Below the pieces are notes generated by a model. That model did not search any database and was not told the DNA's origin. It saw nothing but the letters and a program-made list of their open reading frames with translations. A DNA stretch of 64,000 nt from a virus. Positions 600 through 61,092 of the stretch are shown here, piece after piece. The stretch covers positions 1 to 64,000 of IMG/VR virus record IMGVR_UViG_3300008050_008966. One strand, 5' to 3'. Every line of letters begins with the position of its first letter. Position 1 is the first letter of the stretch. The translations under genes and the position numbers were made by a program.

Positions 600-3500
600 A
601 TGGGCGGCAGAGCTGGACATATGTCACATCTTTATGACAATCCAAATCTGAGGTTTTCTCAGATGATGAATATTTTTAAAGATGCAGCTAATGGTGAATT
701 AGAAGGTACAGAAAAAACTGACGGACAAAATCTATATGTTGGCTATAACGTTGCCGAAGGAAAGGCAAAAGCTGTTCGTAATAAATCAAACTTGATTGGA
801 TTATATCGCGTAAAAAATGAAGAAACAGGCAAAACAGAGATTGTCAGAAAACATCCTCCAGGCGGGCTGGATGCTGCTGGTCTAGCAAGCAAGTTCGAAG
901 CTCGTGGTGATCTCGAAAAAGCTTTTAATGAAGCATTTGAATCATTCGAAACAGTAGCTAGATCATTTCCAGAAAAGACTCAAAGAGAAATATTCGGAGA
1001 CGGCGTCAATATGATTGTGTTTTTTAATTCTGAGATTCAGGATCCAAGAAATGCGAATGTGATCAATTATGATACAAAACTTCTTAATATTCACAGAGTT
1101 GGACATGAAGCAATCGATCCACAAACTGGAGCCGAGTTACCAGATATCAATGTTGGGCCTAATGCTGTTAAATTAGAACGTTCTTTAGATCACGTACAAG
1201 AGATTAATACTAATCAGAAATTCAAAGTTCAAGTTAATCAAATTCGTCAGCTCGAAGCGTTATCAGATGGAGAACAATTAAATTATGCCTTAGATCGTTT
1301 AAATCGCGTCTTAGATGATACTGGAATATCAGACAATCAAACAGTTGGCGAATATGTTATCGCTCGTTTATTGCCAATGATCAGAAATCAGATTTCTTTG
1401 CCCGAAGAAAAAGAAAATCTTTTAATTAAAAGATTGCTCGGGGTCAAAGGAATTAACATTCGAGAAATCAAGAAAGATCTCGATCCAACACAAACTCAAG
1501 CCGTTATCATGCTTGTCTCTAATTCAAAAATCTTACTTCAAAATGCAATTCAGCCCTTAGAAGATGTTGTTCATGATTTCTCCGTTGAAATGATTCGTGA
1601 TCTTCAAAGTGCTTTTATTCTAGATCAAAATCCGGAAGTAAGAAGACTTAAAGTATTGACACAAAAAGCGATCGATGGTATTGAGGCTTCAGGAAATGAA
1701 GAAGCAATGGAAATTCTTCGTAAACAAATGCAAAAATTAAAATCTGCTGAAAATGTTACTACAGCAGCCGAAGGTTTTGTCTTTGATTATGATGGTTACA
1801 CCTATAAATTTACAGGTAATTTTGCTCCAATGAATCAGCTTCTTGGATTATTTCAATATGGTCGAGGTAATATTCCAGCAATGCAACTTTCTGAAGCACA
1901 AGCTGATGGAATTCAAAATGTTGTTGCAATTTATCCTGGTAGATTTCAGCCAATGGGAAGACATCACGCAGAAGCTTTTAAATGGCTTCAGAATCAATTT
2001 GGTGAAGAAAATGTATATGTTGCTACCTCAAATGTTGTTAATCCTCCGAAATCTCCATTAAATTTTGAAGAGAAAAAAGAAGCGATGTTGGCTCATGGAA
2101 TTCCAGGAAGTCAGATCGTGCAAGTTAAAAATCCATATAAAGCAGAAGAAATATTAACCAGTTATGATCCAGAAACAACTTCAGTTGCTTTCATGGTTGG
2201 CAACAAAGATATGGAAGGAGATCCTCGTTTTCGTGTTGGAGAGAAAAAAAGGGGTGGCTTAACTTATTTCCAGGAGTTTGAGTCAAATAAAGAGAATCTC
2301 AGGCCATTTACGGAACATGGATATTTGGTTATAGCTCCTCATATCTCTTTGGATATTGCTGGATATGGCGAAATGTGTGGAACAACTTGTCGCGCAGCTT
2401 TGGCTGACGGTGATGAAAAATTATTTGCTGATGTTATGGGTTTCTTTGATGAAGACCTCTTTAATTTATTTAAAGAAAAGTTTGAATCTGGTACACTCAA
2501 CGAGGAGGTGCAGGGCATGCCGCTCGGCATCTTTCTTGGGCTAATTGAAGAAGTGATGTTAGACGAAAAGAAAAAGAAGAAAAAACCAAAAACTAAAAAA
2601 GATAGAAAAAAAGTATCTACAAAAATTTCATTTTTAAAGAACAAAGAAGGCCTAACACAAAAACAAGCTGTTGGAAAAGCTCTTGGAATGTATTCCGGAG
2701 GATATCTCGAAGAGGAAGATCTAGAAGAAATCACAGCGCCTCCCATACCAGCAATGAAGACTCCAGTGACGCGTCCAACGCCAATGGCATCCGTACCAGG
2801 CGCCGCAGTCACTGCGCCACTTCAACATAAGGGCCCGGTTGGCAAACGTGACAGTGATAAAGAGGAAATTGAAGAAATTTCTGCTGTCGGTGCAGTTCAG
2901 GGTGCAGCAGGAAAAAGAGAACCTGAAGGACTAATTAGAGAAGGGATGGAACAAATGGATAGACACAAAATATATGAAGAAATTCGCTTACGTAAGATTA
3001 TTCGTGAGGGAATTAAAAAAATTAATGCCAAAAATGAGAATGAAAGACAGGAAGAAGCTCTAGAAGAACAAAGATTACGCAAAGTTGTTCGTAAATTAGT
3101 TCTTATGGAAAAAACAACAACCGGAGATACGGATCCTGCGCCGCATCAATCGACCGGAATTAATTTCTTGGAAAAACTTCTGAAAAATATTATTCCTACT
3201 TTGGAAGATGATTATAAAACTCTTACAAGTGATGAAGATCAAAGAGAATCTTTCAGAAATCACGTCCTCAAAGCAATTCAAGATACAATTGAGCCTCTGA
3301 AAGTAACAACACAAGCCATGATGGGATCCCCTCAGATGGCTCTCGCGGAGGAAGAATTAGAAGAGGAAGAAGATTTAACAGTTACACTAAGTCCAGAGGA
3401 TGATCCAGATTTTATTGATGTTCGTTCAGAAAAAGAAAAGAGAGATGAAGAGGCAGAATTAAGTGATGAGCCGGTCTCTACTGAAGATGAAAAAGAACAA

Positions 3501-3800
3501 TTTGGTATTGAGGGCGAAAACGAAGTTGGAAGAAACGCTGCATTTGATACTTTTAAGAAAATTTCAAAGCAAATTGTTTCAAAATATGATGAACTTACTG
3601 GTGCTCCCCAGGATCAGGATTTATTCTATGATTATCTTTTAACAAATACAAAATTATATTTCGATAAGTTTGAAAATGACATGTCGCCAGTAGAAGAACC
3701 AGAAAGTCCAGATTATGATCCCAGTCAAATGGATCAGGAAGCTGCCAGTACTGATGTTTCTGGCGAAACTCTTGGCCAAGAGAAAGAATTAGGATTTTAA
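600..3800 (+). CDS. Ligase-like / nucleotidylyltransferase fusion with long acidic tail
   Basis: This 1066-residue protein has at least three parts. Residues 1-410 carry motifs of the covalent nucleotidyltransferase (DNA/RNA ligase) fold: KTDG at 39-42 (motif I), EGFV at 391-394 (motif IV) and K403 in YKFTG (motif V). Residues about 440-620 form a Rossmann-type adenylyltransferase domain with GRFQPMGRHH at 447-456 and a CGTTCRAAL segment as the second motif; the canonical HxGH reads GRHH, so only the last histidine is in place. The rest is a Lys-rich linker, Pro/Ala segments and very acidic stretches with GKRDSDKEEIEE and two RLRK(I/V)(I/V)R helices. The architecture resembles a family in large T4-like phages that I cannot name with certainty. 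AGAGGA sits upstream of ATG 600. Substrates are unknown; the tail and neighbours suggest packaging in the virion. Confidence 0.65.
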   Translation: MGGRAGHMSHLYDNPNLRFSQMMNIFKDAANGELEGTEKTDGQNLYVGYNVAEGKAKAVRNKSNLIGLYRVKNEETGKTEIVRKHPPGGLDAAGLASKFEARGDLEKAFNEAFESFETVARSFPEKTQREIFGDGVNMIVFFNSEIQDPRNANVINYDTKLLNIHRVGHEAIDPQTGAELPDINVGPNAVKLERSLDHVQEINTNQKFKVQVNQIRQLEALSDGEQLNYALDRLNRVLDDTGISDNQTVGEYVIARLLPMIRNQISLPEEKENLLIKRLLGVKGINIREIKKDLDPTQTQAVIMLVSNSKILLQNAIQPLEDVVHDFSVEMIRDLQSAFILDQNPEVRRLKVLTQKAIDGIEASGNEEAMEILRKQMQKLKSAENVTTAAEGFVFDYDGYTYKFTGNFAPMNQLLGLFQYGRGNIPAMQLSEAQADGIQNVVAIYPGRFQPMGRHHAEAFKWLQNQFGEENVYVATSNVVNPPKSPLNFEEKKEAMLAHGIPGSQIVQVKNPYKAEEILTSYDPETTSVAFMVGNKDMEGDPRFRVGEKKRGGLTYFQEFESNKENLRPFTEHGYLVIAPHISLDIAGYGEMCGTTCRAALADGDEKLFADVMGFFDEDLFNLFKEKFESGTLNEEVQGMPLGIFLGLIEEVMLDEKKKKKKPKTKKDRKKVSTKISFLKNKEGLTQKQAVGKALGMYSGGYLEEEDLEEITAPPIPAMKTPVTRPTPMASVPGAAVTAPLQHKGPVGKRDSDKEEIEEISAVGAVQGAAGKREPEGLIREGMEQMDRHKIYEEIRLRKIIREGIKKINAKNENERQEEALEEQRLRKVVRKLVLMEKTTTGDTDPAPHQSTGINFLEKLLKNIIPTLEDDYKTLTSDEDQRESFRNHVLKAIQDTIEPLKVTTQAMMGSPQMALAEEELEEEEDLTVTLSPEDDPDFIDVRSEKEKRDEEAELSDEPVSTEDEKEQFGIEGENEVGRNAAFDTFKKISKQIVSKYDELTGAPQDQDLFYDYLLTNTKLYFDKFENDMSPVEEPESPDYDPSQMDQEAASTDVSGETLGQEKELGF

Positions 3801-3802
3801 TT

Positions 3803-4897
3803 ATGAATGACATGAAATTAATAATGGAAGGTTGGAGAGAGTATGAAAGTCAGGTACTCAAAACAGAACAATTGCTTGAAGAAGATTTGATTTTACTTCA
3901 GGAGGCTGGTATTCGAAATGCTCTCAAGAATGTTGGTGAAAAAATATCACAAATACTTAAAATTCCTGGAAAATTAAAAGAATTACACAGTACTCTCGGA
4001 ACAGCTAAAGAAAATATAATTTCAAATCTTCCGGAAACTATGGGACAACACTGGAATGAACTTTTGGCCAATCCACCAGAAAATCTCAAAGCTAGTCTAA
4101 ATCCAATAATTGCAGCAATGAATGTCGCTGCAATAATGGTTGAAGAAAAAAAGGGAGAAGCAGCGCTTCAAGAAGAGGTTATATACGAAAAAGACGAAAA
4201 AGAATGGAAATATAGCAAATGGAATCTTTTACAACGACTAAAAGTTAGAAATCAGGTTTTAGCGTCCAGGTGGTCAATGTGGCAAATTTTAGAAGACAAA
4301 TTAAATCAAGCAGAATCATATGAAGAATCAAAAGAAACATTAGAGTGGATACTTCAAGAAACAGCGAAAGAATCAAAAGAATGGAAAGACGCAAAAAAAG
4401 AACTAGAAATGTTAACAAATGATGCAATTTATCAGAGTATAATGAAAGAAGTTGAGCAAGTAATGGGTGATTTACCTGACCCTTCCGTGGCACGATTTTT
4501 AAGAGCCATGATGGTTAACGCTACCGCAGAATTCATTTTTGGATTTTTTGATAATTTTGTTTTAGTGATGGTAGGTAATGGTATAGATGACTTTTTAATG
4601 ACGAATTTCGGCTTCGGCACCTGGGTCGCTGCAAGTCAATCAAATACTGTATCTGACGCCGGAGGCGGATTTTTTGCCAAATTAAATGATCGCATTAAGC
4701 GTTATTTAGTTAATCCTCGAAAAACTGCTTACTCCAGAGAAATAGAAGCAAATTATCATCCATTTTTGGCAAAAATGTTTAAATGGTCTGGATTAATCGG
4801 ATTAATATTGGGTTGCACAGTCGGAAGTATACCAGCATTTTTCATGAAATCACAAGGAATAGCCGAAGGAGAGAATATAGATGAAACTCCTGCTTGA
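3803..4897 (+). CDS. Putative capsid-internal protein with tag and C-terminal membrane segments
   Basis: 364 residues, no recognised family. The N-terminus MNDMKLIMEGWREYE matches the start of the next protein and resembles the short capsid-targeting peptides of T4 internal proteins. LLQEAG at about residues 31-36 fits the (L/I)xE cut rule known for the T4 prohead protease. The middle is Lys/Glu-rich and helical, probably coiled coil. Two hydrophobic stretches follow, near residues 237-262 (FIFGFFDNFVLVM) and 328-350 (WSGLIGLILGC), so it could insert in a membrane. It starts two bases after the previous stop and overlaps the next gene by 17 bases. A protein ejected with the DNA that acts on the inner membrane is an inference. 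Confidence 0.6.
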   Translation: MNDMKLIMEGWREYESQVLKTEQLLEEDLILLQEAGIRNALKNVGEKISQILKIPGKLKELHSTLGTAKENIISNLPETMGQHWNELLANPPENLKASLNPIIAAMNVAAIMVEEKKGEAALQEEVIYEKDEKEWKYSKWNLLQRLKVRNQVLASRWSMWQILEDKLNQAESYEESKETLEWILQETAKESKEWKDAKKELEMLTNDAIYQSIMKEVEQVMGDLPDPSVARFLRAMMVNATAEFIFGFFDNFVLVMVGNGIDDFLMTNFGFGTWVAASQSNTVSDAGGGFFAKLNDRIKRYLVNPRKTAYSREIEANYHPFLAKMFKWSGLIGLILGCTVGSIPAFFMKSQGIAEGENIDETPA

Positions 4898-5672
4898 AAA
4901 TTGGCGAAAGTATTTGGATGAAGCAGAAGGCGGAATTAAAGGATCCGCTAGACAAGCAAAAAAAACAAAATTAAGAATAGCAAAAAATCTTTTGTCAAAA
5001 AATAAATTTTTGCAGAAATACGCAAAAAATTTAAAATCGACTAATCTGGTTGATGCGGGTGGAAAATATATATTTTTAAATTTAGATGGAACATTTGAAC
5101 ATGCTAAATTTTCCCATTCTAGAGAATCAGATATACCAGGTTCGAAATTTAATGACACTTTCAGATCCGATCAAGCTTTAACAAATCTGGTTGTTGATAT
5201 TATACAAAATAAAAAACCATCAGAAATCGATCGATCACCATATGGTACTAAAATAAAATGGTTTAGTATTGATACTGGCCAAGAAATTGGCCTTGATTCA
5301 TTAATTTCGCAGGATGATCCTAAATTATCTGGAAAACAATCCAGTATTTTTGATTTTAAAGAACCAATTAGAAATAATGCTGCAATTCCAAGTCTTTTAG
5401 ATCAAGGCCTTAAAATTTTTGATGAAGAAGGAAACGAACTTCAAGGAGAGCCAGATCCTAATAAAAAATATCTTTCACAACAAGATGTTGCAATTATTGA
5501 TGCTCCACTACAGCCCACACAATTAGTTAATTTAATTGTTGCTGACTTGGGAAGAATTGGATCGCGAAAATTAGTTTCTTTAATGACCGTATTTCCTGGA
5601 ATTATGGAGCCTACAGCAAGAAATAAAAAAGATTATGCTGATTTAGGTTATTATTTCGTAACAGGAAAGTAA
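4881..5672 (+). CDS. Putative capsid-internal protein with N-terminal targeting tag
   Basis: 263 residues, function not recognised. The start MKLLLENWRKYLDEAEGG contains the same MKL..E.WR.Y core as the upstream protein, followed by LDE|A, which fits the (L/I)xE consensus of T4-type prohead proteases. A basic stretch follows (residues 20-55, rich in Lys/Arg), as is common in DNA-associated internal proteins. The remainder is a mixed alpha/beta globular region of unknown type. AAGGAGAG lies just upstream of ATG 4881, and this start gives the tag its full length. The gene overlaps its neighbours on both sides (17 bases and 1 base), so it is translated within the same transcript. Confidence 0.6.
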   Translation: MKLLLENWRKYLDEAEGGIKGSARQAKKTKLRIAKNLLSKNKFLQKYAKNLKSTNLVDAGGKYIFLNLDGTFEHAKFSHSRESDIPGSKFNDTFRSDQALTNLVVDIIQNKKPSEIDRSPYGTKIKWFSIDTGQEIGLDSLISQDDPKLSGKQSSIFDFKEPIRNNAAIPSLLDQGLKIFDEEGNELQGEPDPNKKYLSQQDVAIIDAPLQPTQLVNLIVADLGRIGSRKLVSLMTVFPGIMEPTARNKKDYADLGYYFVTGK

Positions 5673-11952: not shown

Positions 11953-13218
11953 ATGGAAGAAAATAAGAAGATTAAGGTGTTGGTCTTGAGTGATCATCCG
12001 CTTTCTCCCTCTGGAGTTGGCACACAAACGAGATATATGATTGAGTCTTGTTTAAAAACTGGAAAATTTCAATTTGTATGTCTTGGAGGTGCTATAAAAC
12101 ACCTAGACTATACTCCTAAAAAAATTGATCCATATGGCGACGATTGGTTGATATTCCCCATCGATGGATATGGCACCCATGAGATAATTAGATCTGCAAT
12201 TCGTGGCCATAAACCCGATATTGTCTGGTTTATGACAGATCCTAGATTTTTTGGATGGCTTTGGGAAATTGAAAATGAAATTCGTAGTTTAGTACCAATG
12301 GTGTATTATCATGTGTGGGACAACCATCCATATCCCAAATTTAATAAGATTTTCTATGAATCTACAGATGTGATAGCTACTATTTCAAAAGTAACTGATG
12401 ATATCGTAAAAACCGTAGCACCAGATGTTGAAAGTCATTACATTCCACATGCGGTAGATAGTAATATTTTTAAACCCCTGGACGAAGAAGAAATAAAGAA
12501 ATTTGTTCTAGAAGGCATGCCCAATTTGGAAAATAAAGTTATTTTCTTTTGGAATAATAGAAATGCCAGAAGAAAGCAAAGTGGCACTTTGTTATTCTGG
12601 TTCAATGAATTTTTAGATAAAGTCGGTCGCGACAAAGCAGCATTAGTGATGCACACTAATCCGAAAGATCAACATGGTCAAGATTTGGTGGCTATAATCG
12701 AAGAGCTTGAGATGAATGATGGTCAAGTAATATTTTCAACGCAAGCCGTTGCACCAGAAATTTTAGCTAAAATTTATAATTATGCAGATTGTACAATCAA
12801 TATATCAGATGCGGAAGGCTTTGGTTTAGCAACGTTGGAGTCTCTTTCGTGTGGCACTCCTATTATTGTTAATATGACCGGAGGCCTCCAGGAACAAATT
12901 ACAGATGGGGAGAATTGGTTTGGTGTTGGTATTGAACCAGCTTCTAGAGCAATAATTGGATCTCAAACAGTACCGTATATTTATGAAGATCGACTTAATA
13001 AAGATGATTTTATTAATGCACTCCTGAAAATTTATGAATTAACAAGAGAACAGCGGAAAGAAATTGGACTTTTGGGACGAAAATATGTTGAAGAAAATTA
13101 TAATTTTGAAAATTTTGGTAAACGATGGCCCACATTGTTAGAAGATATTCATGAAAGATATGGATCTTGGAAAACAAGAAAAAATTATAAATCATGGCAA
13201 TTAATTGAGGTGGCATAA
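11953..13218 (+). CDS. GT4-type glycosyltransferase
   Basis: 421 residues with a GT-B fold of the GT4 class. The N-terminal domain opens with KVLVLSDHPLSPSGVGTQTRYM, the usual Gly-rich acceptor loop. The C-terminal domain carries the EX7E motif E288-E296 (EGFGLATLE) followed by SCGTPIIVNMTGG, where the nucleotide sugar binds. A retaining transferase of the cytoplasmic glycan-assembly kind is expected; donor and acceptor cannot be read from sequence. It opens the sugar cassette. Its stop overlaps the next start as TAATG. Confidence 0.88.
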   Translation: MEENKKIKVLVLSDHPLSPSGVGTQTRYMIESCLKTGKFQFVCLGGAIKHLDYTPKKIDPYGDDWLIFPIDGYGTHEIIRSAIRGHKPDIVWFMTDPRFFGWLWEIENEIRSLVPMVYYHVWDNHPYPKFNKIFYESTDVIATISKVTDDIVKTVAPDVESHYIPHAVDSNIFKPLDEEEIKKFVLEGMPNLENKVIFFWNNRNARRKQSGTLLFWFNEFLDKVGRDKAALVMHTNPKDQHGQDLVAIIEELEMNDGQVIFSTQAVAPEILAKIYNYADCTINISDAEGFGLATLESLSCGTPIIVNMTGGLQEQITDGENWFGVGIEPASRAIIGSQTVPYIYEDRLNKDDFINALLKIYELTREQRKEIGLLGRKYVEENYNFENFGKRWPTLLEDIHERYGSWKTRKNYKSWQLIEVA

Positions 13219-14498
13219 TGATAAAAGTATTAGTAAGAGGGCCGGTCTTAACAAGATCTGGGTATGGAGAACATGTTAGGTTTTTACTGCGCGCCCTGCG
13301 TACAGTCGAAGATAAACTAGATCTATATTTAATTCCACTAGGGTGGGGACATACTGGCTGGGTTGTTGATGACGATGAAGAAAGAAAATGGCTTGATAAA
13401 TTAATAGAAAAGACATCACTGGCGCTTAATTCACAAAAGGTAGAATTTGACATGTCTATCCAAGTTTCAATTCCAAATGAATGGGAAAAATTAGCACCGG
13501 TTAATATTGGAGTCACAGCTGGGATCGAGACAACAAAAATAGCGCCAGCTTGGATTGAGAAAGGAAATATGATGGATTTGATTATTGTTCCATCAAATCA
13601 CTCAAAACAAGTGTTCGAAAATACGAAATATGAAGTAACCGTAAAAGAAACAAATAAAATTATTCCTGATTATTGTTGTATCACCCCGATTCATGTTATA
13701 TCATATCCTGTCAAGAAAATTGAACCCGTAGAGGTACCTTTGGACCTAAAGACTGATTTTAATTTTTTGACAGTTGCACAATGGGGCCCGAGAAAAAATA
13801 TTGTTAATTCTATTCAATGGTTCGTTGAAGAATTTATTGATCAAGAAGTGGGCCTTGTTATCAAAACGAATTTAACCAAAAATTCTTTAATGGATAGAAA
13901 ACACGTTGAGGGCCTATTGCGGCATGCCCTATCCAAGGAAGATTATAAAAATAGAAAATGTAAAATTTATCTTTTGCATGGCGACATGACAGATGCCGAA
14001 TTACATCAATTATACCGCGATCCAAAAATAAAAGCGCTTGTTTCGACAACTCATGGCGAAGGATTTGGATTGCCATTGTTCGAGGCAGCTTATGAGGGCT
14101 TACCAGTCGTCGCGCCTGATTGGAGCGGGCATGTCGACTTCCTTCATATGCCAACAAAAGACAAGAAAAATAAAATCAAAAACAAGCCTATGTACGCAAA
14201 AGTAGAATATACCCTAGGGCCCATTCCACAAGAAGCTATATGGGATAGTGTGATCCAAAAAGACTCAATGTGGTGTTATCCGGAACAAGGATCTTTAAAG
14301 ATTAAAATGAGGGAAGTCTACAAAGATTATGGCAGATTTAAAAAACAAGCCAAGAAGCTTCAAAAATATTTAAATAAAACCCTAACAGCTGAAAATCAAT
14401 ATAAAATAGTTGTTGATACTGTTTTTGGTAATCAACTAAAATTAAGCGAAGAACAAAATAAGTGGGTAGATGATTTATCTAACATACAGATGTTGTAG
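13218..14498 (+). CDS. GT4-like glycosyltransferase
   Basis: 426 residues, GT-B fold. It starts VLVRGPVLTRSGYGEHVRFL, the acceptor-side loop, and has TVAQWGPRKNI at the inter-domain hinge. The donor-side motif is E281-E289 (EGFGLPLFE), then EGLPVVAPDWSGH. It is a paralogue-like partner of the upstream transferase but clearly diverged, so the two likely make different linkages. GAGGTGGC precedes the ATG inside the upstream coding end. The stop TAG shares a base with the GTG start of the next gene. Confidence 0.85.
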   Translation: MIKVLVRGPVLTRSGYGEHVRFLLRALRTVEDKLDLYLIPLGWGHTGWVVDDDEERKWLDKLIEKTSLALNSQKVEFDMSIQVSIPNEWEKLAPVNIGVTAGIETTKIAPAWIEKGNMMDLIIVPSNHSKQVFENTKYEVTVKETNKIIPDYCCITPIHVISYPVKKIEPVEVPLDLKTDFNFLTVAQWGPRKNIVNSIQWFVEEFIDQEVGLVIKTNLTKNSLMDRKHVEGLLRHALSKEDYKNRKCKIYLLHGDMTDAELHQLYRDPKIKALVSTTHGEGFGLPLFEAAYEGLPVVAPDWSGHVDFLHMPTKDKKNKIKNKPMYAKVEYTLGPIPQEAIWDSVIQKDSMWCYPEQGSLKIKMREVYKDYGRFKKQAKKLQKYLNKTLTAENQYKIVVDTVFGNQLKLSEEQNKWVDDLSNIQML

Positions 14499-16102
14499 TG
14501 AAAGTTGTATTTATATCAGATTATTTTCGAAAAGAACTCTTAGATACGATGATACATCACGAATTGACTGCAGGTGCCGAATCAAATGATTCAGTATTAA
14601 TTTCTTATCTTAAGAATAATTTTTCATTAATTATAAAAAGAAGCTCTGATTGTGATTTACCTTTTATGCGAAAGCATAAAGATTCTGTTTTTATTATAAG
14701 TAACTTTATCTTCTTGCCCGAAGTAGTTAAAGGCTTTTTAATCAATGAAGCGAAATATATTATTTATGAGCATGATCACAAATATGTATATACGAGAGAT
14801 CCTTCAAAATTTAAAGACTATGATATACCAACCAACATGTTGGCCAATGTTGAGTTTTATACAAATGCCTATAAGGTGATCGTTTTAAGTAAAATTTGTA
14901 AAGAAATATTAGAAAAAAATCTGAATTTAAATAATGTCATAAGTATTGGAACCAGTTTGTGGTCTGATGAGAAGTTTAAATTATTAGAAAAAAAGATAAA
15001 AAATAAAAAAGATAAAAAATTAGGAATTATAAAATCTACTAATTTGATCAAGGGCACGCAAGAGGCAATTGATTATTGTAACAATAAAAATATTGAGTTT
15101 GAATTAATAGAGCAAAATCAAGAAAGTGAATTTTTAGATTTAATATCTGAGTATGAACAAATTTTATTTCTACCACAAGTTTTAGAAACATTTTGTCGTA
15201 CTGTAGCAGAAGCAAAAATATTAAATTGTAAATTATTAACGACACCAAAAAGAATCGGTTTTTTTAGCGAATCTGAATTATTAAGCCTCCATGGTCTGGG
15301 CCTTTTAGAAGAACTCAAAGACAGAACTCAAAAAGCCTGCACCTTATTCAAACATCTAATTGAGGATAAACAAAAAGAGATAACAGTAATATTAAATTGT
15401 TATAGAAGGCCTGAATACTTGAAAGAACAGATTGAAGCCGTTAAGAAACAAGCAAAAAAACCTCATGAAATTTGGGTTTGGGTCAACCATCATGAAGATA
15501 ATCAAAATTTTGATTTTTCCAAGCTTGGTGTCGATAGAATATTCAAGAATGACTATAATTGGAAATATTATGGACGTTTCGCAGCTGCCATGTTGGCAAA
15601 AACAAAATATATAGCTTTGTTTGATGATGATACGATACCTGGCAAAGAATGGTTTTCCAATTGTTTAGAACAGATATCTCAAAAAGAAGGAATTATGGGG
15701 GGCGCCGGCGTTACACTGAAGCATGAATCTTATAAAGACCACGATAGGCACGGATGGTCATCACAAAATGAAGATTTAGTTGAGGTTGATTTGGTGGGAC
15801 ACGCGTGGTTTTTTAAGAAAGAGTGGTTGAAATACCTTTGGATGGAAGATCCTCTCACTTGGGAAAATGGAGAAGATATTCATTTTGCTTATGTGGCTCA
15901 AAAATATGGAAATATATCTTCTTATTGTCCGCCACATCCTAAGAGTAATATTGAAAAACATAGTTCGCTGAAAGGTTATGAATACGGCGTTGATGATAAG
16001 GCGAGTAGCGCAGTTAAGAATCATGCAATATTTTATCAAGAAAGAGATGAAATAGTAAAACATGCCATCGCCGGCGGCTGGAAGATTTTAAAAAATAAAT
16101 GA
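14498..16102 (+). CDS. Two-domain glycosyltransferase (N-terminal GT-B-like half + C-terminal GT2)
   Basis: 534 residues from a GTG start that overlaps the upstream stop. Residues 1-285 resemble a GT-B transferase core (VVFISDYFRKELL, LGIIKSTNLIKGTQEA, and a QVLETFCRTVAEAK segment in the donor-site position). Residues about 290-530 are a GT-A/GT2 domain: EITVILNCYRRPEYL, then DDD at 376-378 in FDDDTIPGKEW for metal-nucleotide binding, and a later ENGEDIHFAY segment where the catalytic base usually lies. One chain could add two sugars in sequence. The gene ends in ATGA overlap with the epimerase gene. Confidence 0.8.
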   Translation: MKVVFISDYFRKELLDTMIHHELTAGAESNDSVLISYLKNNFSLIIKRSSDCDLPFMRKHKDSVFIISNFIFLPEVVKGFLINEAKYIIYEHDHKYVYTRDPSKFKDYDIPTNMLANVEFYTNAYKVIVLSKICKEILEKNLNLNNVISIGTSLWSDEKFKLLEKKIKNKKDKKLGIIKSTNLIKGTQEAIDYCNNKNIEFELIEQNQESEFLDLISEYEQILFLPQVLETFCRTVAEAKILNCKLLTTPKRIGFFSESELLSLHGLGLLEELKDRTQKACTLFKHLIEDKQKEITVILNCYRRPEYLKEQIEAVKKQAKKPHEIWVWVNHHEDNQNFDFSKLGVDRIFKNDYNWKYYGRFAAAMLAKTKYIALFDDDTIPGKEWFSNCLEQISQKEGIMGGAGVTLKHESYKDHDRHGWSSQNEDLVEVDLVGHAWFFKKEWLKYLWMEDPLTWENGEDIHFAYVAQKYGNISSYCPPHPKSNIEKHSSLKGYEYGVDDKASSAVKNHAIFYQERDEIVKHAIAGGWKILKNK

Positions 16103-17106
16103 TATTGATAGCATTTGGAACAAGACCTGAATATATTAAAATCAAGCCTTTATTGAAGATTTTCGATGGTAAAGTACCGTTTAGACTCTTGTTTACAGGG
16201 CAACATGTTGATCTATTACCCGATATTAAAGAAGAGATATGTCGTCTAAAAATACAAGATGGCAGGAATCGTCTAGATTCAATTGTTTCTTCAATAATGA
16301 ATAATGATGATATTTTTAAAGATATCGATTCTGTTTTGGTGCAAGGCGATACAACATCTGTTTTTTCTATTGCACTAGCTGCGTTTCATCGTAAAATTAA
16401 AGTAATTCATTTAGAGGCCGGCCTAAGAACATATAATCCGGAGCATCCATATCCAGAAGAGTTGAATAGGCAATTGACTTCTAGAATAGCAGATATACAT
16501 CTTTGCCCAACACAAACAGCATATGATAACCTAGAAGCAGAAAGAGTATCTGGGGAAAAATATATTGTAGGAAATACAGTTTTGGATAATCTGTTGGACG
16601 TCCAAATAGAATATAACGATACCGTTATTGTAACGATGCACCGCCGCGAAAATCATGACAATATGCACATGTGGTTTAAAGAAATTGATGAATTAGCTAA
16701 AGAATATGATGATTTAAAATTTATTTTGCCTATTCACCCGAATCCCAACGTAAAAAAACATGAACATTTATTAAAACATGTTGAAGTTGTTCCTCCAATG
16801 AATTATAATGAATTTATTGAAGAATTGGCTAGTTGTCATTTGATAATAACAGACAGTGGCGGCATCCAGGAAGAAGCTTCGTTTTTAAGAAAAAAATGTT
16901 TAGTTTGTCGAAAAACTACAGAAAGAGCTGAAGGTTTGGGAGTTTTTTCTGAATTGGTAGAAAAACCACGAGATTTAAAAAAAATATTTTCATGGACAAA
17001 CATTGACCCCATACCAGATGAATTTATGGTATGCCCATATGGCGATGGCCGATCAGCAGAAAAAATATATAAAATTTTGTTGGAGAGACTGAATGTCGAA
17101 TTATAA
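16099..17106 (+). CDS. wecB: UDP-N-acetylglucosamine 2-epimerase
   Basis: 335 residues, slightly shorter than the 370-380 usual for WecB/MnaA. Diagnostic features are FGTRPEYIKIKPL at residues 6-18, QGDTTS (D84), LEAGLRT (E106), YPEELNR (E120) and the donor-binding TDSGGIQEEASFL. It should interconvert UDP-GlcNAc and UDP-ManNAc in the cytoplasm. UDP-ManNAc is the direct substrate of a WecC-type dehydrogenase, and a compact enzyme of that family is encoded at 26128. The ATGA overlap with the upstream transferase shows translational coupling. Confidence 0.92.
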   Translation: MILIAFGTRPEYIKIKPLLKIFDGKVPFRLLFTGQHVDLLPDIKEEICRLKIQDGRNRLDSIVSSIMNNDDIFKDIDSVLVQGDTTSVFSIALAAFHRKIKVIHLEAGLRTYNPEHPYPEELNRQLTSRIADIHLCPTQTAYDNLEAERVSGEKYIVGNTVLDNLLDVQIEYNDTVIVTMHRRENHDNMHMWFKEIDELAKEYDDLKFILPIHPNPNVKKHEHLLKHVEVVPPMNYNEFIEELASCHLIITDSGGIQEEASFLRKKCLVCRKTTERAEGLGVFSELVEKPRDLKKIFSWTNIDPIPDEFMVCPYGDGRSAEKIYKILLERLNVEL

Positions 17107-18286
17107 AATTAAATTTATCAACCATGCATGTATGAGTTTCGAGAACGATAAGCATTTGATGTTGGTTGATCCCTGGTTTTCCTCAAAAGTTTTTAATGAT
17201 TCTTGGTCTCTTTTACAAGAAACAGATATTAATAGAATTAATTTTGACAAATTAACTCATATTTTTTATACTCACGAGCACCCAGATCATCTGAATTGGC
17301 CAACACTAAAGCTGATTAGTGAGCGAGCAGTCAACAAAGTTTGGGTCATTGGACTTAAAAGAAAAAATACAAATATCAAAGAGCAATTAGAAAAAATGGG
17401 TTTCGGATATGCAGAATTGAGACCAAATATAGAAACAAAAATTACTTCAACATTTTCCATATGCCAATTTCCAACTGGAATTGATTCTGCACAAGTTTTT
17501 AGAGTTGATAACAAAATTATATTAAATCAAAATGATTGTAAATTGGATCGAAATCAAGTTTTCAACCTAAGGGGCCAATTTCCAAAAATTGATTTATGGC
17601 TTATGCAATTTGGATTGGCTGGATATTATGCCAACAGGGATGACGAGGCTGGATTGCTCCTTGCACAAGAAAAACATCGCGACTTAATTCGTTACTATCA
17701 TGATGAATTTAAGCCGGCTTCTTATATTCCCTTTGCTAGTTTTGTATATTTTTGTAAAGAATACAATTGTTTTTTGAATGATTGGCAAATAACAATGCCG
17801 ATGGTTGAGAAAAATTTTGCAAACTATCCTTTACAGATTGTATTTTATGATGACGAGATATTATTTGATGATTACCAGAATCGCAACAGAGAGAATATTG
17901 AAAAATGGGAAAATATATTCAAAAACAATATTAAACAAATAACAAAATCAAAAGAATGCAGTGAATTGGATATTTTGAAAGAAGCCGATTTATTTGCAAA
18001 TGAATACAGCGCAGACCATAATGCGCCGACATTGTTGTATTTACAATTTTTTGACAATGATAACTTTTTCCATTGTGATTTTAAAAATAAAATATTTAAA
18101 TTCGTTGATGAGGGTGAAATTGATTCAAACAAATTAGCAGGAATTCTTCCAATGGAAGAATTGCATTCTTTTTTTAAATTTCCATGGGGAGCTGATACCT
18201 TGAACATTACCTCATGTTTTGATAAAATCAATGATAATATTTGGCGTAATATGTTAATATGGAAAGATAACCTATATCATAGATAA
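17093..18286 (+). CDS. Metallo-beta-lactamase-fold hydrolase
   Basis: 397 residues. The N-terminal half is an MBL domain: IKFINHACMSFE, LMLVDPWF, and the metal motif HEHPDH at 61-66 after THIFYT. The early strand-loop pattern is like UlaG and the MBL part of CMP-sialic acid hydroxylase, but there is no Rieske Cys/His pair. The C-terminal 150 residues have no recognised domain. MBL proteins of this kind occur in polysaccharide gene clusters, where they may hydrolyse phospho- or nucleotide-sugar intermediates. The start lies 14 bases inside the epimerase gene. Confidence 0.75.
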   Translation: MSNYKIKFINHACMSFENDKHLMLVDPWFSSKVFNDSWSLLQETDINRINFDKLTHIFYTHEHPDHLNWPTLKLISERAVNKVWVIGLKRKNTNIKEQLEKMGFGYAELRPNIETKITSTFSICQFPTGIDSAQVFRVDNKIILNQNDCKLDRNQVFNLRGQFPKIDLWLMQFGLAGYYANRDDEAGLLLAQEKHRDLIRYYHDEFKPASYIPFASFVYFCKEYNCFLNDWQITMPMVEKNFANYPLQIVFYDDEILFDDYQNRNRENIEKWENIFKNNIKQITKSKECSELDILKEADLFANEYSADHNAPTLLYLQFFDNDNFFHCDFKNKIFKFVDEGEIDSNKLAGILPMEELHSFFKFPWGADTLNITSCFDKINDNIWRNMLIWKDNLYHR

Positions 18287-18307
18287 AATTACCGAGAGAT
18301 AAAAATA

Positions 18308-19804
18308 ATGAAAAATAAAACTATATGCTTAATAACGCCTCCATCTCCATTTTTATTGGATGAAAGGGTTTTTCTTCATTTGGGCGTTTTGAAAGTGGCT
18401 TCGAACTTAGAAGCAAATGGATATAAGGTTGATTTTATTGATCTAAGCGGTATTAAAAACTTCTTAGATGTAATTAAAAATTATATTCAGGTTAACGGAG
18501 CTACAACTACATTTGGAATTACAGCAACAACACCACAAGTTCCATTTTCTGTAAAAATATGCAAAATCATTAAAAAACATATGCCAGAAGCAAAAGTAAT
18601 TTTAGGGGGCCCCCATTGTACTTTGATGAATACGGCTGCTAAAATGGAGAAGAAAAAAGGCCTCGAAACGAGCGATCGCGCCACAAAAGATGTAGAAAAG
18701 CTATTATCTATTTTTGATATATTGGTTTGTGGAGACGGCGAGTTATCTATTTTTGAAGCCCTAAAAATACAAAAAGGTATCGTCGACGCTGACGATAAAA
18801 AATCTTCATTATTTCTGAGTAATGACTCTTTTTCAGAATTACCACCGCCGGCGCGCCATTTGGTCGATATGAGCACCTATGAATACAGTATTGAGGGCTT
18901 CAATTCTACTAGTTTGATTGCACAGCTGGGATGTCCTTTTCATTGTACATTTTGCAGCGGAAGAAATTCTCCATTTTTAAGAAAGATCCGCACACGCTCT
19001 AGTGAATCGATTTTGGAAGAGATAGATTTTCTTTATAAAAAATATGGATATCAAGGATTCATGTTTTACGATGACGAACTCAATGTTAACAAAAATATGA
19101 TTTCTCTGATGGATAAAATTACTGATTATCAAGATAAAAATGGAGTCGAATTTAGATTAAGAGGATTCGTAAAAGCTGAATTATTTACAGAAGATCAGGC
19201 TATAGCAATGCGCAGAGCCGGCTTTCGTTGGCTCTTAACGGGATTTGAATCTGGAGATGAGAGGATCCTCCACAATATCAAGAAAGTGGCCACAAGGGAC
19301 GATAATACACGGTGTGTGGAGATAGCAAAGAATAGTGGGCTTAAAGTGAAAGCTTTGATGTCCGTAGGCCACGCCGGCGAAAGTGCAAAAAGTATCGAAA
19401 ACACAAAAAATTGGCTCCTAGAAGTAGAGCCAGAAGATTTTGATTGCACAGTGATAACTACATATCCCGGTTCTCCTTATTTTGATTATGCTGTCAAAGA
19501 AAATGACTATTATGTGTATACAGAAAAGAAAAATGGTGATAAACTATACCAAGCTTCTATTGATTATTTAACCGAATTAGATTTTTATAAAGGAGATCCA
19601 GAAGACGGGTATATATCATATGTGTGGACACAGAACATAACAGCAGAAGCATTGGTAGAAGAAAGAAATAAATTAGAAAACGAAGTAAGAGAAAAATTAA
19701 ATATTCCATTTAATCCCGGCCGGCCAGGTCTTGTTTATGAACATTCAATGGGGATGGGTAATATTAATATTCCTTCTCATATTTTACGAACAACGAGAAA
19801 ATAA
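18308..19804 (+). CDS. B12-binding-domain radical SAM enzyme
   Basis: 498 residues. The N-terminal 190 residues have the Rossmann pattern of B12-binding radical SAM proteins: LITPPSPFLL, LKVASNLEANGYKVDFIDLS and VILGGPHCTL. The classic DxHxxG cobalamin motif is not clear. The radical SAM core has C209-x3-C213-x2-C216 (CPFHCTFC) holding the 4Fe-4S cluster, followed by FMFYDDELNVN and LLTGFESGD. Family members methylate or rearrange unactivated carbons; here a sugar or lipid precursor is plausible from context. ACCGAGAGAT precedes ATG 18308. Confidence 0.85.
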   Translation: MKNKTICLITPPSPFLLDERVFLHLGVLKVASNLEANGYKVDFIDLSGIKNFLDVIKNYIQVNGATTTFGITATTPQVPFSVKICKIIKKHMPEAKVILGGPHCTLMNTAAKMEKKKGLETSDRATKDVEKLLSIFDILVCGDGELSIFEALKIQKGIVDADDKKSSLFLSNDSFSELPPPARHLVDMSTYEYSIEGFNSTSLIAQLGCPFHCTFCSGRNSPFLRKIRTRSSESILEEIDFLYKKYGYQGFMFYDDELNVNKNMISLMDKITDYQDKNGVEFRLRGFVKAELFTEDQAIAMRRAGFRWLLTGFESGDERILHNIKKVATRDDNTRCVEIAKNSGLKVKALMSVGHAGESAKSIENTKNWLLEVEPEDFDCTVITTYPGSPYFDYAVKENDYYVYTEKKNGDKLYQASIDYLTELDFYKGDPEDGYISYVWTQNITAEALVEERNKLENEVREKLNIPFNPGRPGLVYEHSMGMGNINIPSHILRTTRK

Positions 19805-19809
19805 TTAAG

Positions 19810-20718
19810 ATGAAAATTTTACATATAGCAGTTTTTGATAATGCGGGAGTATCTTCGGATACTTCTTTCGCGATCGCCATGGCTAACCGTAGCGATATAG
19901 AAGAGGTATTAGCTTATAATTATAGGCCCCGAGCAGAAGAAATTGGATATGAAAAAAGAGATCTTGAACTTATTCAAATATGCAGAGAAGAACAACCAGA
20001 TTTAGTTCTATTTGTAAAATGTAATATTATGCACACACAAGTCTTTGAAGAATGTAAAAAAATATGCCCTATTGTATATTGGTTCCCAGATCCACTAATA
20101 ACATTTAGGCAAGATCCAGGATTTATGGAGAAAGCAAAAATCAGTGATATGGTGGTTGTTGACAAAAAGAATGTTTTTGACGAAATCAAACCACATAACA
20201 AAAATGTATTTATAATACCAGATGGCTTTGATGCATCGCTTGAAAAACCAAGAGAAGGTCTGGACCAGGAGTATGACGTTAGTTTTATCGGCCAGACGTA
20301 CGGCGATCGCCTAGAAAAATTACAAAAAATAAAGCATAATGCCACTATTATATCAAATGCTTATGGAGTACGTCATTCTGAAACAGTAGCTCGTAGCAAA
20401 ATTAATTTAAATTTCTGTACGAGCGATGGCCCATCTAATAGAATTTATAAAGTTCTGGCGGCGAAAGGGTTTTTATTAACCGATGATTGGATCGACCGCG
20501 ATAAAGAATTTGAAGATGGAAAGCATTTAGTAATTTTTAAAGATATTGACGATTTAAACGAAAAAATATCATATTATTTAGAAAACGAAAAAGAGAGAGA
20601 TCGTATTAGGGAAGAAGGATATAAATTATCTCACAAATATACTAGAGAGATATGGGTTGAAAAATTTCTAAATATTTTTGAAAACAAAGTAGGCAAAAAT
20701 GAAAAAGATTTACTCTAA
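19810..20718 (+). CDS. Putative glycosyltransferase (CgeB-like)
   Basis: 302 residues. ILHIAVFDNAGV at the start, then CPIVYWFPDP, VFIIPDGFDASL and YDVSFIGQTYGDR follow the order in CgeB / Glyco_trans_1_2 proteins. The C-terminal half has the NRIYKVLAAKGFLLTDDW segment that takes the place of the GT4 donor site. It is short for GT-B, with a reduced N-terminal domain. It overlaps the cupin gene by 20 bases. A cytoplasmic transferase in the same glycan pathway is likely. Confidence 0.7.
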   Translation: MKILHIAVFDNAGVSSDTSFAIAMANRSDIEEVLAYNYRPRAEEIGYEKRDLELIQICREEQPDLVLFVKCNIMHTQVFEECKKICPIVYWFPDPLITFRQDPGFMEKAKISDMVVVDKKNVFDEIKPHNKNVFIIPDGFDASLEKPREGLDQEYDVSFIGQTYGDRLEKLQKIKHNATIISNAYGVRHSETVARSKINLNFCTSDGPSNRIYKVLAAKGFLLTDDWIDRDKEFEDGKHLVIFKDIDDLNEKISYYLENEKERDRIREEGYKLSHKYTREIWVEKFLNIFENKVGKNEKDLL

Positions 20719-21118
20719 AATTGATGAAAATAAATTATTGCATATAGTAAATCGCCTAGGGGATATTGATTCAAGAACTGATATTATTCCTGATGATAAT
20801 TTTCTGCAACTTGCGACGCTTAAGTTGCCGATTGGAAAAACTTTTAGACCGCATAGACACAATTGGAAAAAAAATAGTGGAACACAAAATATTGCACAAG
20901 AATCTTGGATTGTGGTGGAAGGAAAAGTAAAGTGTTCCTTTTATGATTTAGATGATAAATTAATTTCAACATATATTTTAAATCCTGGAGATTGTTCAAT
21001 AACTCTCGAAGGTGGTCACACTTACGAGACTTTGGAAGACAATACTATAGTTTACGAATACAAAACTGGCCCATATATGGGGCAAGAACTAGATAAGAGA
21101 TTTTTAGATGGAAAATAA
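20699..21118 (+). CDS. Cupin-fold protein (WbuC-like)
   Basis: 139 residues with a single cupin barrel. Motif 1 is PHRH (H52, H54) and E68 in AQESW; motif 2 contains GGH (H107). These supply a His3-Glu-type metal site. Similar small cupins (WbuC family) sit in O-antigen gene clusters, usually with unproven roles. Sugar isomerisation or epimerisation is possible. It overlaps both neighbours (20 and 11 bases). Confidence 0.7.
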   Translation: MKKIYSKIDENKLLHIVNRLGDIDSRTDIIPDDNFLQLATLKLPIGKTFRPHRHNWKKNSGTQNIAQESWIVVEGKVKCSFYDLDDKLISTYILNPGDCSITLEGGHTYETLEDNTIVYEYKTGPYMGQELDKRFLDGK

Positions 21119-21866
21119 ACAACTTAGTTATGATAATTTTGGTGTCTATATATGGACGAGCAATCAGTTGATGCACTGTGTACCAGCATGGGCTTATTTA
21201 TTTAATAAATTTTGGCCGCGCTCACAAAAAGTTAGAGTTTTGGGATATAATTTGCCAGACTATGAATTACCAGATAATTTTGAATATATATCTTTGGGAA
21301 AACAACGAGGGCCGCAATATTGGTCTGATGACATAAAAGAATATTTTTCTTCTTGTGAACATGAGTGTTTTTATTTAACCACCGAAGATGGATTTATAGT
21401 CGGGAACGTGGACGAAGAAATTTTAGATCTTGCAGTCAAAATTGCTTTGTTAAATCCTGAAAATAAATTTAGTAGATTTAATTTGACAGCAGATGTACAC
21501 CGACGTCCTCAATATTGCCTAAAACAATTTGGAGATTTTAAGCTTATCAAGGCAGAACAATATGCGCGATATAGACAATCTCTATCACATTCGATTTGGA
21601 GAAAAGATAGCTTATTGCGCAAATTAATGCCCAATCAATCTCCGTGGGATTTTGAATTAGATGATGCGAGAGCGATGTATGATAATTTAGATGTTTATGC
21701 AACTGAAGGCAGATATGCTATTCATTGTGGCCATGGATACCAAAGAGGTAAAAAATTAGTTAATTGGTATCAAAACTCATACCATCCAGAGTTTAGTGAT
21801 CATTTTGGTTTAGAAAAAGAAGATATTCAATTTATTGAAAATAAAGGCTGGATGCCCGAGATATAA
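21108..21866 (+). CDS. Putative glycosyltransferase-like protein
   Basis: 252 residues, no secure family. The layout recalls small GT-A-type transferases: YIWTSNQLMHC, a central CFYLTTEDGFIVG that could be a DxD-like metal loop, and aromatic-rich segments near the end (WDFELDDARAMYDNL, AIHCGHGYQRG). It sits among confirmed sugar genes and overlaps the cupin. The assignment is tentative; a sugar-modifying enzyme of another type is possible. Confidence 0.45.
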   Translation: MENKQLSYDNFGVYIWTSNQLMHCVPAWAYLFNKFWPRSQKVRVLGYNLPDYELPDNFEYISLGKQRGPQYWSDDIKEYFSSCEHECFYLTTEDGFIVGNVDEEILDLAVKIALLNPENKFSRFNLTADVHRRPQYCLKQFGDFKLIKAEQYARYRQSLSHSIWRKDSLLRKLMPNQSPWDFELDDARAMYDNLDVYATEGRYAIHCGHGYQRGKKLVNWYQNSYHPEFSDHFGLEKEDIQFIENKGWMPEI

Positions 21867-21883
21867 AATATTTTTAATATTTG

Positions 21884-21892
21884 TGGTATGAT
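21884..21892 (+). promoter_or_regulatory. Candidate extended -10 promoter before the FabH-like gene
   Basis: TGGTATGAT (TG-n-TATGAT) matches the extended -10 form of a sigma-70 promoter and lies 24 bases before ATG 21916. The spacing allows a leader holding AAAGGAAA, the ribosome site. No good -35 is seen, which extended -10 promoters can do without. It falls exactly at the entry to a GC-rich gene pair, consistent with a cargo unit that brought its own promoter. Confidence 0.4.
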
Positions 21893-21915
21893 TAACCCAG
21901 AAAGGAAAAAAAGAA

Positions 21916-22860
21916 ATGAAATATGAAAACGTAACTATTACCGGAATAGGCTCCTATTTGCCCCCCAAAGTGGTTACTAACGCTGATATTGTTAAGGATG
22001 TGGATACCACAGATGAGTGGATATACACCAAACTGGGAATCAGGGAACGCCGCGTTGCAGATAATGAGTCTGTATCAGAGATGGGAACAAAGGCTGCTCG
22101 AAAGGCGCTACTTGACGCCAACTTAGATAAAGAAGATATAGACCTTATTATTGTTGCAACATCGAGCCCCGAGCAGATTTCTCCCGCTACTGCATGCGCG
22201 ATTCATCGAAAGCTCGGGATTAAAAAAAATGTACCCTCTTATGATATTAATGCAGTCTGCTCGGGGTTTTTATATGCCATATCGTTGAGCGCACCTCTCG
22301 TGTCGGTGGGTGCTTATAAAAACGTTTTGATTATTGCCACAGAGGCTTACTCCAACATAACCAACTGGAAAGCGAGGCATTGCGTATTCTTCGGCGACGG
22401 CGCCGGCGCAGTTGTTTTGGGGCCGGCCGAGAAAGGATGGATGGGCGGAACGATAGTAGCCAACGGATCCGGAACGGGCCCGACGGGCTTTGTGGCGCGC
22501 CTGGGTGAACCCTTTGAGATGGTCGGGAAAGAAGTGTGGGACCAGGCCGCAGCCGTCTTGCCCGATTCTATTAGAGAGGTATTAAATAGTTACTCCCTTA
22601 AGGCGGAAGATATCACCATGTTGGTGCCCCATCAGCCCAGTATTAATATTTTAAAACTGGTGGCTAAAGAAGTGGGGCTTCCCATGGAAAAAGTTAAAAC
22701 TGTTATGCACAAGTATGCCAATATAGCGGCCGCATCGATTCCCATTGCCTTAGATGAGGCAATCAAAAAGAGAGAGATTAACTGGGGTGACAAGATTTTA
22801 TTAACCGCTATTGGATCAGGTTGGGCATGGGGGACCATGGTGGTGAACTATGAACGATAA
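21916..22860 (+). CDS. 3-oxoacyl-ACP synthase III (FabH-like)
   Basis: 314 residues, close to the 317 of E. coli FabH. The thiolase-fold triad is complete: C115 in NAVCSGF, H239 in PHQPS and N269 in YANIAAASIP. TDEWIYTKLGIRERR near residue 33 and GDGAGAVVLG near 155 are also typical. FabH joins an acyl-CoA to malonyl-ACP; FabH-like enzymes also make acyl groups for sugar N-acylation. The gene is far more GC-rich than its neighbours (hand count: 65% at 22381-22440 against 28% at 21241-21300), a strong sign of recent transfer. It overlaps the acyltransferase by 11 bases, so the two act as a unit. Confidence 0.92.
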   Translation: MKYENVTITGIGSYLPPKVVTNADIVKDVDTTDEWIYTKLGIRERRVADNESVSEMGTKAARKALLDANLDKEDIDLIIVATSSPEQISPATACAIHRKLGIKKNVPSYDINAVCSGFLYAISLSAPLVSVGAYKNVLIIATEAYSNITNWKARHCVFFGDGAGAVVLGPAEKGWMGGTIVANGSGTGPTGFVARLGEPFEMVGKEVWDQAAAVLPDSIREVLNSYSLKAEDITMLVPHQPSINILKLVAKEVGLPMEKVKTVMHKYANIAAASIPIALDEAIKKREINWGDKILLTAIGSGWAWGTMVVNYER

Positions 22861-23335
22861 TATTCTTACATTACTGCGCCGCGTCGGAGAGGACGTCCGG
22901 ATTAGCGAGTTGGCCCTGATTAGTCGTCCCCATTTAGTTGAGATGGGGAGCCATATAGCTATAGACATGTGGACATATATATCCACCGAAACGATTTTGG
23001 GAGATTATATTCATATCGCGCCGAGCGTATCGATTATAGGAGGAGCCAATGCGCACCTAACCATGGGGAACTTTACAAATATTGGTTCTGGAGGGCGTAT
23101 TGTGTGCGCCACTGATGATTTTAGTCAAGGTTTAATTTCTCCGGTTGTTCCGTTAGAGCATCGCACGGTAATAAGCGAGCCAGTGGTGTTTGAAGATTTT
23201 GCCACCCTGGGAGTCAACTGTTCAGTTTTGCCCGGTGTTACGATCGGCGAAGGATGTATAGTGGGAGCCAACTCGGTGGTTACCAGGGACACTGAGCCGT
23301 GGATGATCTATGCGGGATCCCCAGCTCGCCCAGTC
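21935..23335. other. GC-rich insert covering the FabH-like and acyltransferase genes
   Basis: The composition changes from about 28% GC before this block to 47-65% within it (hand-counted 60-base lines 22021, 22381 and 23221 give 47, 65 and 53%), then falls to 27% at 23341-23400. Both edges lie inside coding sequence: the first few codons of the FabH-like gene and the last 18 or so codons of the acyltransferase are AT-rich like the phage. That points to an acquired segment trimmed or recombined into phage sequence. No flanking direct repeat was found by eye. Confidence 0.6.
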
Positions 23336-23389
23336 AAAAAACGTGAAAAAGAAAGAATTCTAGAAAGTGCAGCAGATTTAGGATATTAA
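22850..23389 (+). CDS. Left-handed beta-helix acyltransferase
   Basis: 179 residues with hexapeptide-repeat pattern from residue 25 to 160 (HIAIDMWTYI, TILGDYIHIAPSVSI, TLGVNCSVLPGVTIGEGCIVGANSVV) and the closing AGSPARPVKKR typical of this superfamily. Trimeric enzymes of this type acylate amino or hydroxyl groups of nucleotide sugars from acyl-CoA. Next to a FabH-like synthase and near an aminotransferase, N-acylation of an amino sugar is a good guess. The last 18 codons switch to AT-rich phage-like composition, so the C-terminus may be a recombinant product. Confidence 0.85.
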   Translation: MNDNILTLLRRVGEDVRISELALISRPHLVEMGSHIAIDMWTYISTETILGDYIHIAPSVSIIGGANAHLTMGNFTNIGSGGRIVCATDDFSQGLISPVVPLEHRTVISEPVVFEDFATLGVNCSVLPGVTIGEGCIVGANSVVTRDTEPWMIYAGSPARPVKKREKERILESAADLGY

Positions 23390-23390
23390 A

Positions 23391-24326: not shown

Positions 24327-24390
24327 GAATGTTAAAAAAAATGCACTAGAAATAGATTTAAGCGTATTAAGTTGACGCAAGAGGAAAAAT
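24327..24390 (+). promoter_or_regulatory. 64-base gap with small hairpin and ribosome site
   Basis: The gap holds GCGT-ATTAAGTTG-ACGC (24361-24377), a 4-bp stem around a 9-base loop, too weak for a terminator, followed by AAGAGGAAAAAT as the ribosome site for ATG 24391. No clear promoter is seen. Confidence 0.2.
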
Positions 24391-25949: not shown

Positions 25950-26131
25950 ATTTTAAAGCCGGCGATCTAGTTGAATGGACAGAGCTTTGTGGAGAGGGCT
26001 TTATTGTCAACCAGAGAGGGCTAGGTATCATAGTTGATAAATGTAAACGATTTTTTAAGGTTCAGCGATTAACTCAACAAGATATTGTAAATTTTGATGT
26101 ATATCAACTAAAATTAATTAATAAAAAATGA
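25931..26131 (+). CDS. Small SH3-like hypothetical protein
   Basis: 66 residues. GDLVEWTELCGEGFIV, GLGIIVDKC and FFKVQRL suggest a small beta-barrel of the kind frequent in T4-like marine phages, without known function. It overlaps gmd by 19 bases and the dehydrogenase gene by 4. It seems unrelated to sugar synthesis. Confidence 0.5.
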   Translation: MDERNLDFKAGDLVEWTELCGEGFIVNQRGLGIIVDKCKRFFKVQRLTQQDIVNFDVYQLKLINKK

Positions 26132-61051: not shown

Positions 61052-61092
61052 AATATGAAACAATTCTATATATTTATGATAAGGTATAATTA

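Follow-up and report, generated by a model that had tools for sequence, protein, structure and literature searches.

Two neighbouring genes of an uncultured virus, referred to herein as gene A and gene B, begin with a shared N-terminal peptide, tag1, which we read as a capsid targeting sequence. It would belong to uncultured phages distantly related to T4 and would be cut by a gp21-type protease. Judged from sequence comparison, we give this reading a probability of about 0.8. An earlier note on this DNA had proposed the capsid-targeting role, and the proposal gains support from the presence of the protease and of gp23 in relatives, a match to the T4 targeting sequence, cut-site statistics, the position of tagged genes in head modules, a shared promoter-like motif and a phage-only spread. 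The shared tag described in that note was right, whereas a second tag, the scale of the system and the displaced cut site of gene A were absent from it. As the class of mechanism is familiar from T4 and we found no open-access description of the tag families, we class the tag1 system as a variant of the T4 kind.

The tag1 consensus is MKL[LI][LMF]ENWRx[FY][LI]xE, and that of the second N-terminal tag, tag2, is MKITKxxLKxIIKEE. In the following, W+3 is the position three residues past the tag tryptophan, P1' is the residue after the cut, a slash within a peptide marks a predicted cut, G numbers are genomes or contigs, and L numbers are fetched stretches. The window, i.e. the whole stretch of 64,000 nucleotides that was analysed, consists of positions within a 70,720-base IMG/VR virus record, which is itself a fragment. 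The features of the window considered here are:

600..3800, + strand: 1066-aa protein whose N-terminal part, with a nucleotidyltransferase-like stretch, is fused to a C-terminal part
3803..4897, + strand: gene A, tag1-headed, 364 aa; cut site predicted to be displaced and, at the C-terminus, a TMEM65-like membrane domain
3803..3844, + strand: tag1 of gene A, MNDMKLIMEGWREY
3845..3904, + strand: remainder of the gene A predicted propeptide, ending LLQE34/A35 at 3904/3905; a site of the gp21 rule, L32 and E34 invariant
4532..4846, + strand: TMEM65-like domain, gene A residues 244-348 (Pfam PF10507)
4881..5672, + strand: gene B, tag1-headed, 263 aa, body without a known family
4881..4922, + strand: tag1 of gene B, MKLLLENWRKYLDE, predicted cut LDE14/A15 at 4922/4923

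Both open reading frames, 3803-4897 (+; MNDMKLIMEGWREYE) and 4881-5672 (+; MKLLLENWRKYLDEAE), have the MKL..E.WR.Y-type start and bodies that are unlike each other, as the earlier note had said. The six frames of the window hold the N-terminal pattern in two places, genes A and B, and a check of the whole record for further copies found just these 2 in 70,720 bases (reversed-pattern control, 0). The aromatic pair is W11 and Y14 in gene A, the start of which is ambiguous (ATG 3803 or the in-frame ATG 3812), and W8 and Y11 in gene B. The cut sites quoted previously, LQE34/A35 in gene A and LDE14/A15 in gene B, are present; the LLQE/A site of gene A does not, however, adjoin the end of the tag but sits 23 residues past the tryptophan, and gene A is without a canonical site beside its tag. 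An alignment of gene A with another four tagged proteins has invariant columns at E9, W11, R12, Y14, L32 and E34, and the residue after E34 is A or G. Since this alignment is weak beyond the tag, where the body matches reach E 0.0005 and 0.005 at best, the agreement at L32 and E34 is suggestive only; we infer that gene A would be cleaved after LLQE34.

The two bodies differ in what can be recognised in them. The C-terminal domain of gene A matches the TMEM65 family (PF10507) with 48.3 bits and E 1.1e-12, above the curated Pfam cut-off of 25, and one weak relative of the body was found. TMEM65 is otherwise familiar from mitochondrial membrane proteins, and a stretch resembling the gene A domain is also present in Vibrio phage 2.275.O. 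For gene B, a profile search gave a weak match of the body to another tagged protein (L025:145-771), and a locus search for relatives returned matches in the tag alone. A likeness of this body to small phage RNase-like domains, seen by eye, was dropped, having no support in Pfam or the PDB. Structure models of the gene A and gene B proteins, made without an alignment, reached mean pLDDT values of 33 and 37 and were unusable.

A degenerate DNA pattern for tag1 matched at least 120 IMG/VR contig stretches, a single stretch holding as many as six tagged genes. In these uncultured phage contigs tag1 heads 226 proteins whose bodies fall into 117 clusters (blastp, E 1e-4), i.e. a common N-terminal peptide on proteins with unrelated bodies, as in T4. 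Among 2,140 genes, the core W[RK]x[FY][LIVM]xE was counted 222 times, a number that is inflated by the choice of loci for the tag; 213 of the 222 lie within the first 30 residues, and this N-terminal position is unaffected by the choice. The fetch pattern fixed W, F/Y and E and therefore inflates the frequencies at those positions, and 30 tags beside the fetched ones, free of this constraint, have the same form. Comparing N-termini de novo in two whole genomes yielded tag1-like groups of 14 genes, one of them probably spurious, and of 8 genes, and tag2-like groups of 9 and 5 genes. As a positive control, the comparison recovered T4 ipII, ipIII and gp61.1 as a repeated start. Tag1 was present in all 16 chosen genomes, in 1 to 9 copies and on one strand per genome, with no match for the reversed pattern. 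These reversed-pattern controls, together with the N-terminal confinement, rule out chance similarity.

A general or cellular protein motif is likewise ruled out, as a search of 84,980 species genomes of bacteria and archaea for the tag1 pattern gave two matches, each among phage genes, and one of the two stretches held six more tag1-like or tag2 genes. One stretch filed under a bacterium, L311 (PBSV01000031.1, Opitutia MAG), is packed with tag1 and tag2 genes and for this reason is probably a phage contig binned in error. A peptide search of cultured phages for tag1 gave spurious matches only, and T4, immuto, Mel-JY01 and RM378 have no copy.

T4 ipII and ipIII both start MKTYQEFIAE, the sequence that had been quoted for IPIII. 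In T4, residues 4 and 7 of the targeting sequence mainly govern targeting, and residues 8 and 10 processing (PMC9026906). With the spacing 0, +3, +4 and +6, T4 Y4, F7, I8 and E10 correspond to the W, F/Y, L/I/V and E of tag1. The W and F/Y of tag1 thus supply aromatics at both IPIII targeting positions, and the processing residues (I/L and E) are in place in gene B and displaced to LQE34 in gene A. The peptide is short, and the equal spacing could reflect convergence on a similar core and protease. The tagged proteins resemble T4 IPI, IPII, IPIII and Alt in that a short N-terminal peptide heads unrelated proteins, in the motif aromatic-x-x-[FY]-[LI]-x-E with identical spacing, and in the combination of an L/I-x-E cut rule with a gp21-type protease in the genome. 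Unlike the T4 sequence, tag1 has 14 residues rather than 10, with an added MKLLxEN part and W where T4 has Y; its P1' is looser, its cargo comprises over a hundred clusters, and the tagged genomes carry a second, different tag. The propeptides of T4 gp21, gp23 and gp24 are also N-terminal with L/I-x-E sites, and the gp21 start MNEPQLLIETW and the LLNKWKPLLEG of gp23 resemble KLLxENWR when judged by eye; these propeptides belong to the head proteins themselves, whereas tag1 is portable. In the giant phages phiKZ and SPN3US, which are of another phage group, many head proteins are ejected, as in the proposed system, and a distant relative of gp21 processes them after E (PMC9026906, PMC7411985).

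If tag1 is removed by a gp21-type protease, its C-terminal end should behave as a cut site, and the statistics are consistent with this. W+4 is L, I or V in 192 of 206 tags and W+6 is E in 184 of them, although the E was partly imposed by the search. In eight tags, a few of which are interrelated, the first E lies at W+7, and all eight have L or I two residues before it; L at W+5 is otherwise rare (6/175, shifted tags counted in). As [LI]xE is kept in 8/8 of these one-residue insertions, it moves as one unit. At P1', A, G and S are enriched (65/181 versus 179/1,086 at the next six positions; Fisher p 1e-8), and bulky residues and proline are depleted (12/181 versus 360/1,086; p 1e-15). The T4 P1' is limited to A, G and S, whereas that of tag1 is frequently E, D, Q or N. 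In 14 capsid proteins from these phages, LL[RK]E is conserved and the next residue is A (7), S (3), T, Q, N or Y; the core protein contains [LIM]LE sites, and an invariant LLTE stands near the start of the protease. Since their own capsid proteins show a loose P1', a cut rule looser than that of T4 looks normal for the tagged phages.

Of the tagged contigs, 12 measure at least 130 kb, and every one of these encodes both a gp21-type protease (Peptidase_S77) and a gp23 capsid protein. Neither was found in the window's own 70.7-kb record. This record is collinear over ~60 kb with G004 and G026 (27 and 35 matches, a few counted twice), and as the G004 head module lies past the point corresponding to the record's right end, the record probably ends short of its head module; by this collinearity its phage would have the same protease as its relatives. 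The capsid proteins of the tagged phages are nearest, among cultured phages, to those of Flavobacterium phage immuto, Microcystis phage Mel-JY01 and Rhodothermus phage RM378, which makes the tagged phages far relatives of T4. Three head modules have tagged genes in among the portal, protease and core genes:

G022 head module: tagged genes MKLLLEHWNRYLQE and ...WRTFLNEG
G036 head module: tagged genes MKIILERWDSYLIFE and ...ERWDRYLKE
G025 head module: a tag2 gene immediately behind the protease

Tagged genes also share a promoter-like motif with head genes. The motif ACTATTTA was found de novo upstream of head genes and, scored within 120 bp upstream, precedes 17% of tag1 genes, 21% of tag2 genes and 17% of head-module genes, versus 7% of others (tagged versus other genes, p 4e-8). 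In L167-L181 and L256-L273 it precedes genes for sheath, neck and core as well as tagged genes, and it is a likely late-promoter element of the tagged phages; no copy lies on the window's + strand.

Tag2 was found in 16/16 genomes, in 1 to 7 strict copies each, with no control matches. Beyond the window, positions 69,088-70,720 of the record (L002 9088-10720) hold four tandem tag2 genes with starts of the form MKITKxQLxQ[IL]I[KE]EEL at the record's right end, the first with ACTATTTA 41 bp upstream. Many tag2 proteins have [LI]xE near residue 20, followed mostly by G, A, D or S; cleavage of tag2 is nevertheless less certain, because other tag2 proteins reach no such site. The cultured phage immuto has a tag2-like repeat, one copy of which lies between portal and protease, and the de novo comparison found further recurrent N-termini in two cultured phages distantly related to T4. 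Repeated starts in immuto (MW353176, L293-L300) are MENFDLKKFLVEN (4 genes), MKKSQLRxIIKEAL (4) and MKKQILSEQFxRMQ (2); these are candidate tags in a cultured phage. In Mel-JY01 (PP395634, ~60,276-62,056), three adjacent genes start with MIKLKSLLQE or similar and have DRVWHLT bodies, a repeat that may be simple duplication, as two starts are near-identical and the bodies are related.

The recognised bodies behind the tags include HAD and kinase folds, GNAT, Nudix, SET, DUF192, M23 peptidase and DnaJ, as well as a zeta-toxin-like kinase, HD, GDSL, LysM, protein kinase and HNH. Tagged proteins with YHxT starts are suggestive, by this pattern only, of ADP-ribosyltransferases. According to the earlier note, finding the pattern across clearly non-virion proteins would speak against a targeting role. 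The outcome was divided: many of the tagged bodies are enzymes normally regarded as intracellular, such as Nudix, GNAT, nucleotidase and DnaJ proteins, whereas DNA polymerase, helicase and RecA genes, where recognisable, are untagged in the two whole genomes that were read.

We propose that during prohead assembly the N-terminal tag would bind the scaffolding core via its W and the F/Y three residues on, and the attached protein, whatever its kind, would thereby enter the prohead. There, the S77 protease of the gp21 type would cut after [L/I]-x-E and free the mature protein within the head, from which it would probably be ejected into the host along with the DNA. The enzymes just named could also work within the producing cell, as would fit a tag that is an uncleaved localisation or assembly helix, directed to the inner membrane, a replication compartment or a host complex and capped by [LI]xE; the tag of gene B is helical in its poor structure model. 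We consider such a helix improbable, as [LI]xE shifts as a unit upon insertion and is followed by a residue biased to A/G/S, the conserved residues track the T4 targeting sequence, and tagged genes stand in head modules.

The head-module position bears on a further alternative, in which the tagged proteins would be parts of the prohead core, or scaffold, cut up and lost at maturation like T4 gp67 and gp68. Some tagged genes do occupy the gp67/gp68 position between portal and core gene; most stand elsewhere, however, and enzyme or domain bodies begin right behind the tag, e.g. FINE/SKLRVFDFDDT, so that we regard this explanation as a little less probable still than the helix. Very improbable, in our estimate, is a shared start that was copied before genes as a DNA-level cassette or translation leader and whose peptide has no role. 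Some copies are DNA-identical (ATGAAACTCCTACTTGAAAATTGGCGA in G022 and G026), and codon sharing exceeds the codon-usage expectation at L4, E6 and R9, yet it is no higher than codon usage predicts for Asn at position 7, and position 3 uses six leucine codons. Conservation follows the residues, and [LI]xE survives insertions, both of which argue against such a DNA-level origin.

Extending the capsid-targeting reading to both tags, we lean towards a system in which each virion would be loaded, by way of the two removable tags tag1 and tag2, with ~10 to 20 accessory proteins taken from a common stock of more than 100 families, and in which the injected proteome would be readable from sequence. The few internal proteins of T4 include inhibitors of host defence; to our knowledge, the proteins injected by other phages are mostly unknown. 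If the tags do serve as packaging addresses, genome sequence would suffice to list what a large group of uncultured phages injects. Such a list would run to over a hundred candidate first-minute effectors, the majority with no assigned function, and the system would offer two natural packaging tags to study and a direct view of cargo exchange among T4-type phages. In the open-access literature we found no description of these tag families, their scale or their cargo, and our literature search found no virion proteome of immuto.

Several further observations concern T4 and the surroundings of genes A and B. T4 gp61.1 (NC_000866 18966-19130), annotated as hypothetical, starts MKTFKEFIKE, like an internal protein, and is a candidate packaged protein. 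The C-terminal part of the 1066-aa protein upstream of gene A is a separate gene in relatives, with a start such as MNQQEEQILRQSIREIIRSVKSKKL; repeated LRxxIR helices are present, and in G026 a ACTATTTA site lies upstream. Within the 1066-aa protein, LRKIIREGIKK and LRKVVRKLVL are loosely tag2-like, which would make it at most a candidate member of the packaging system. Positions 11,953-27,824 of the window are occupied by a long run of sugar and glycan genes, partly common to G004 and G026, which includes glycosyltransferases, sugar epimerases, a ketoacyl synthase-like protein and a radical-SAM-like protein.
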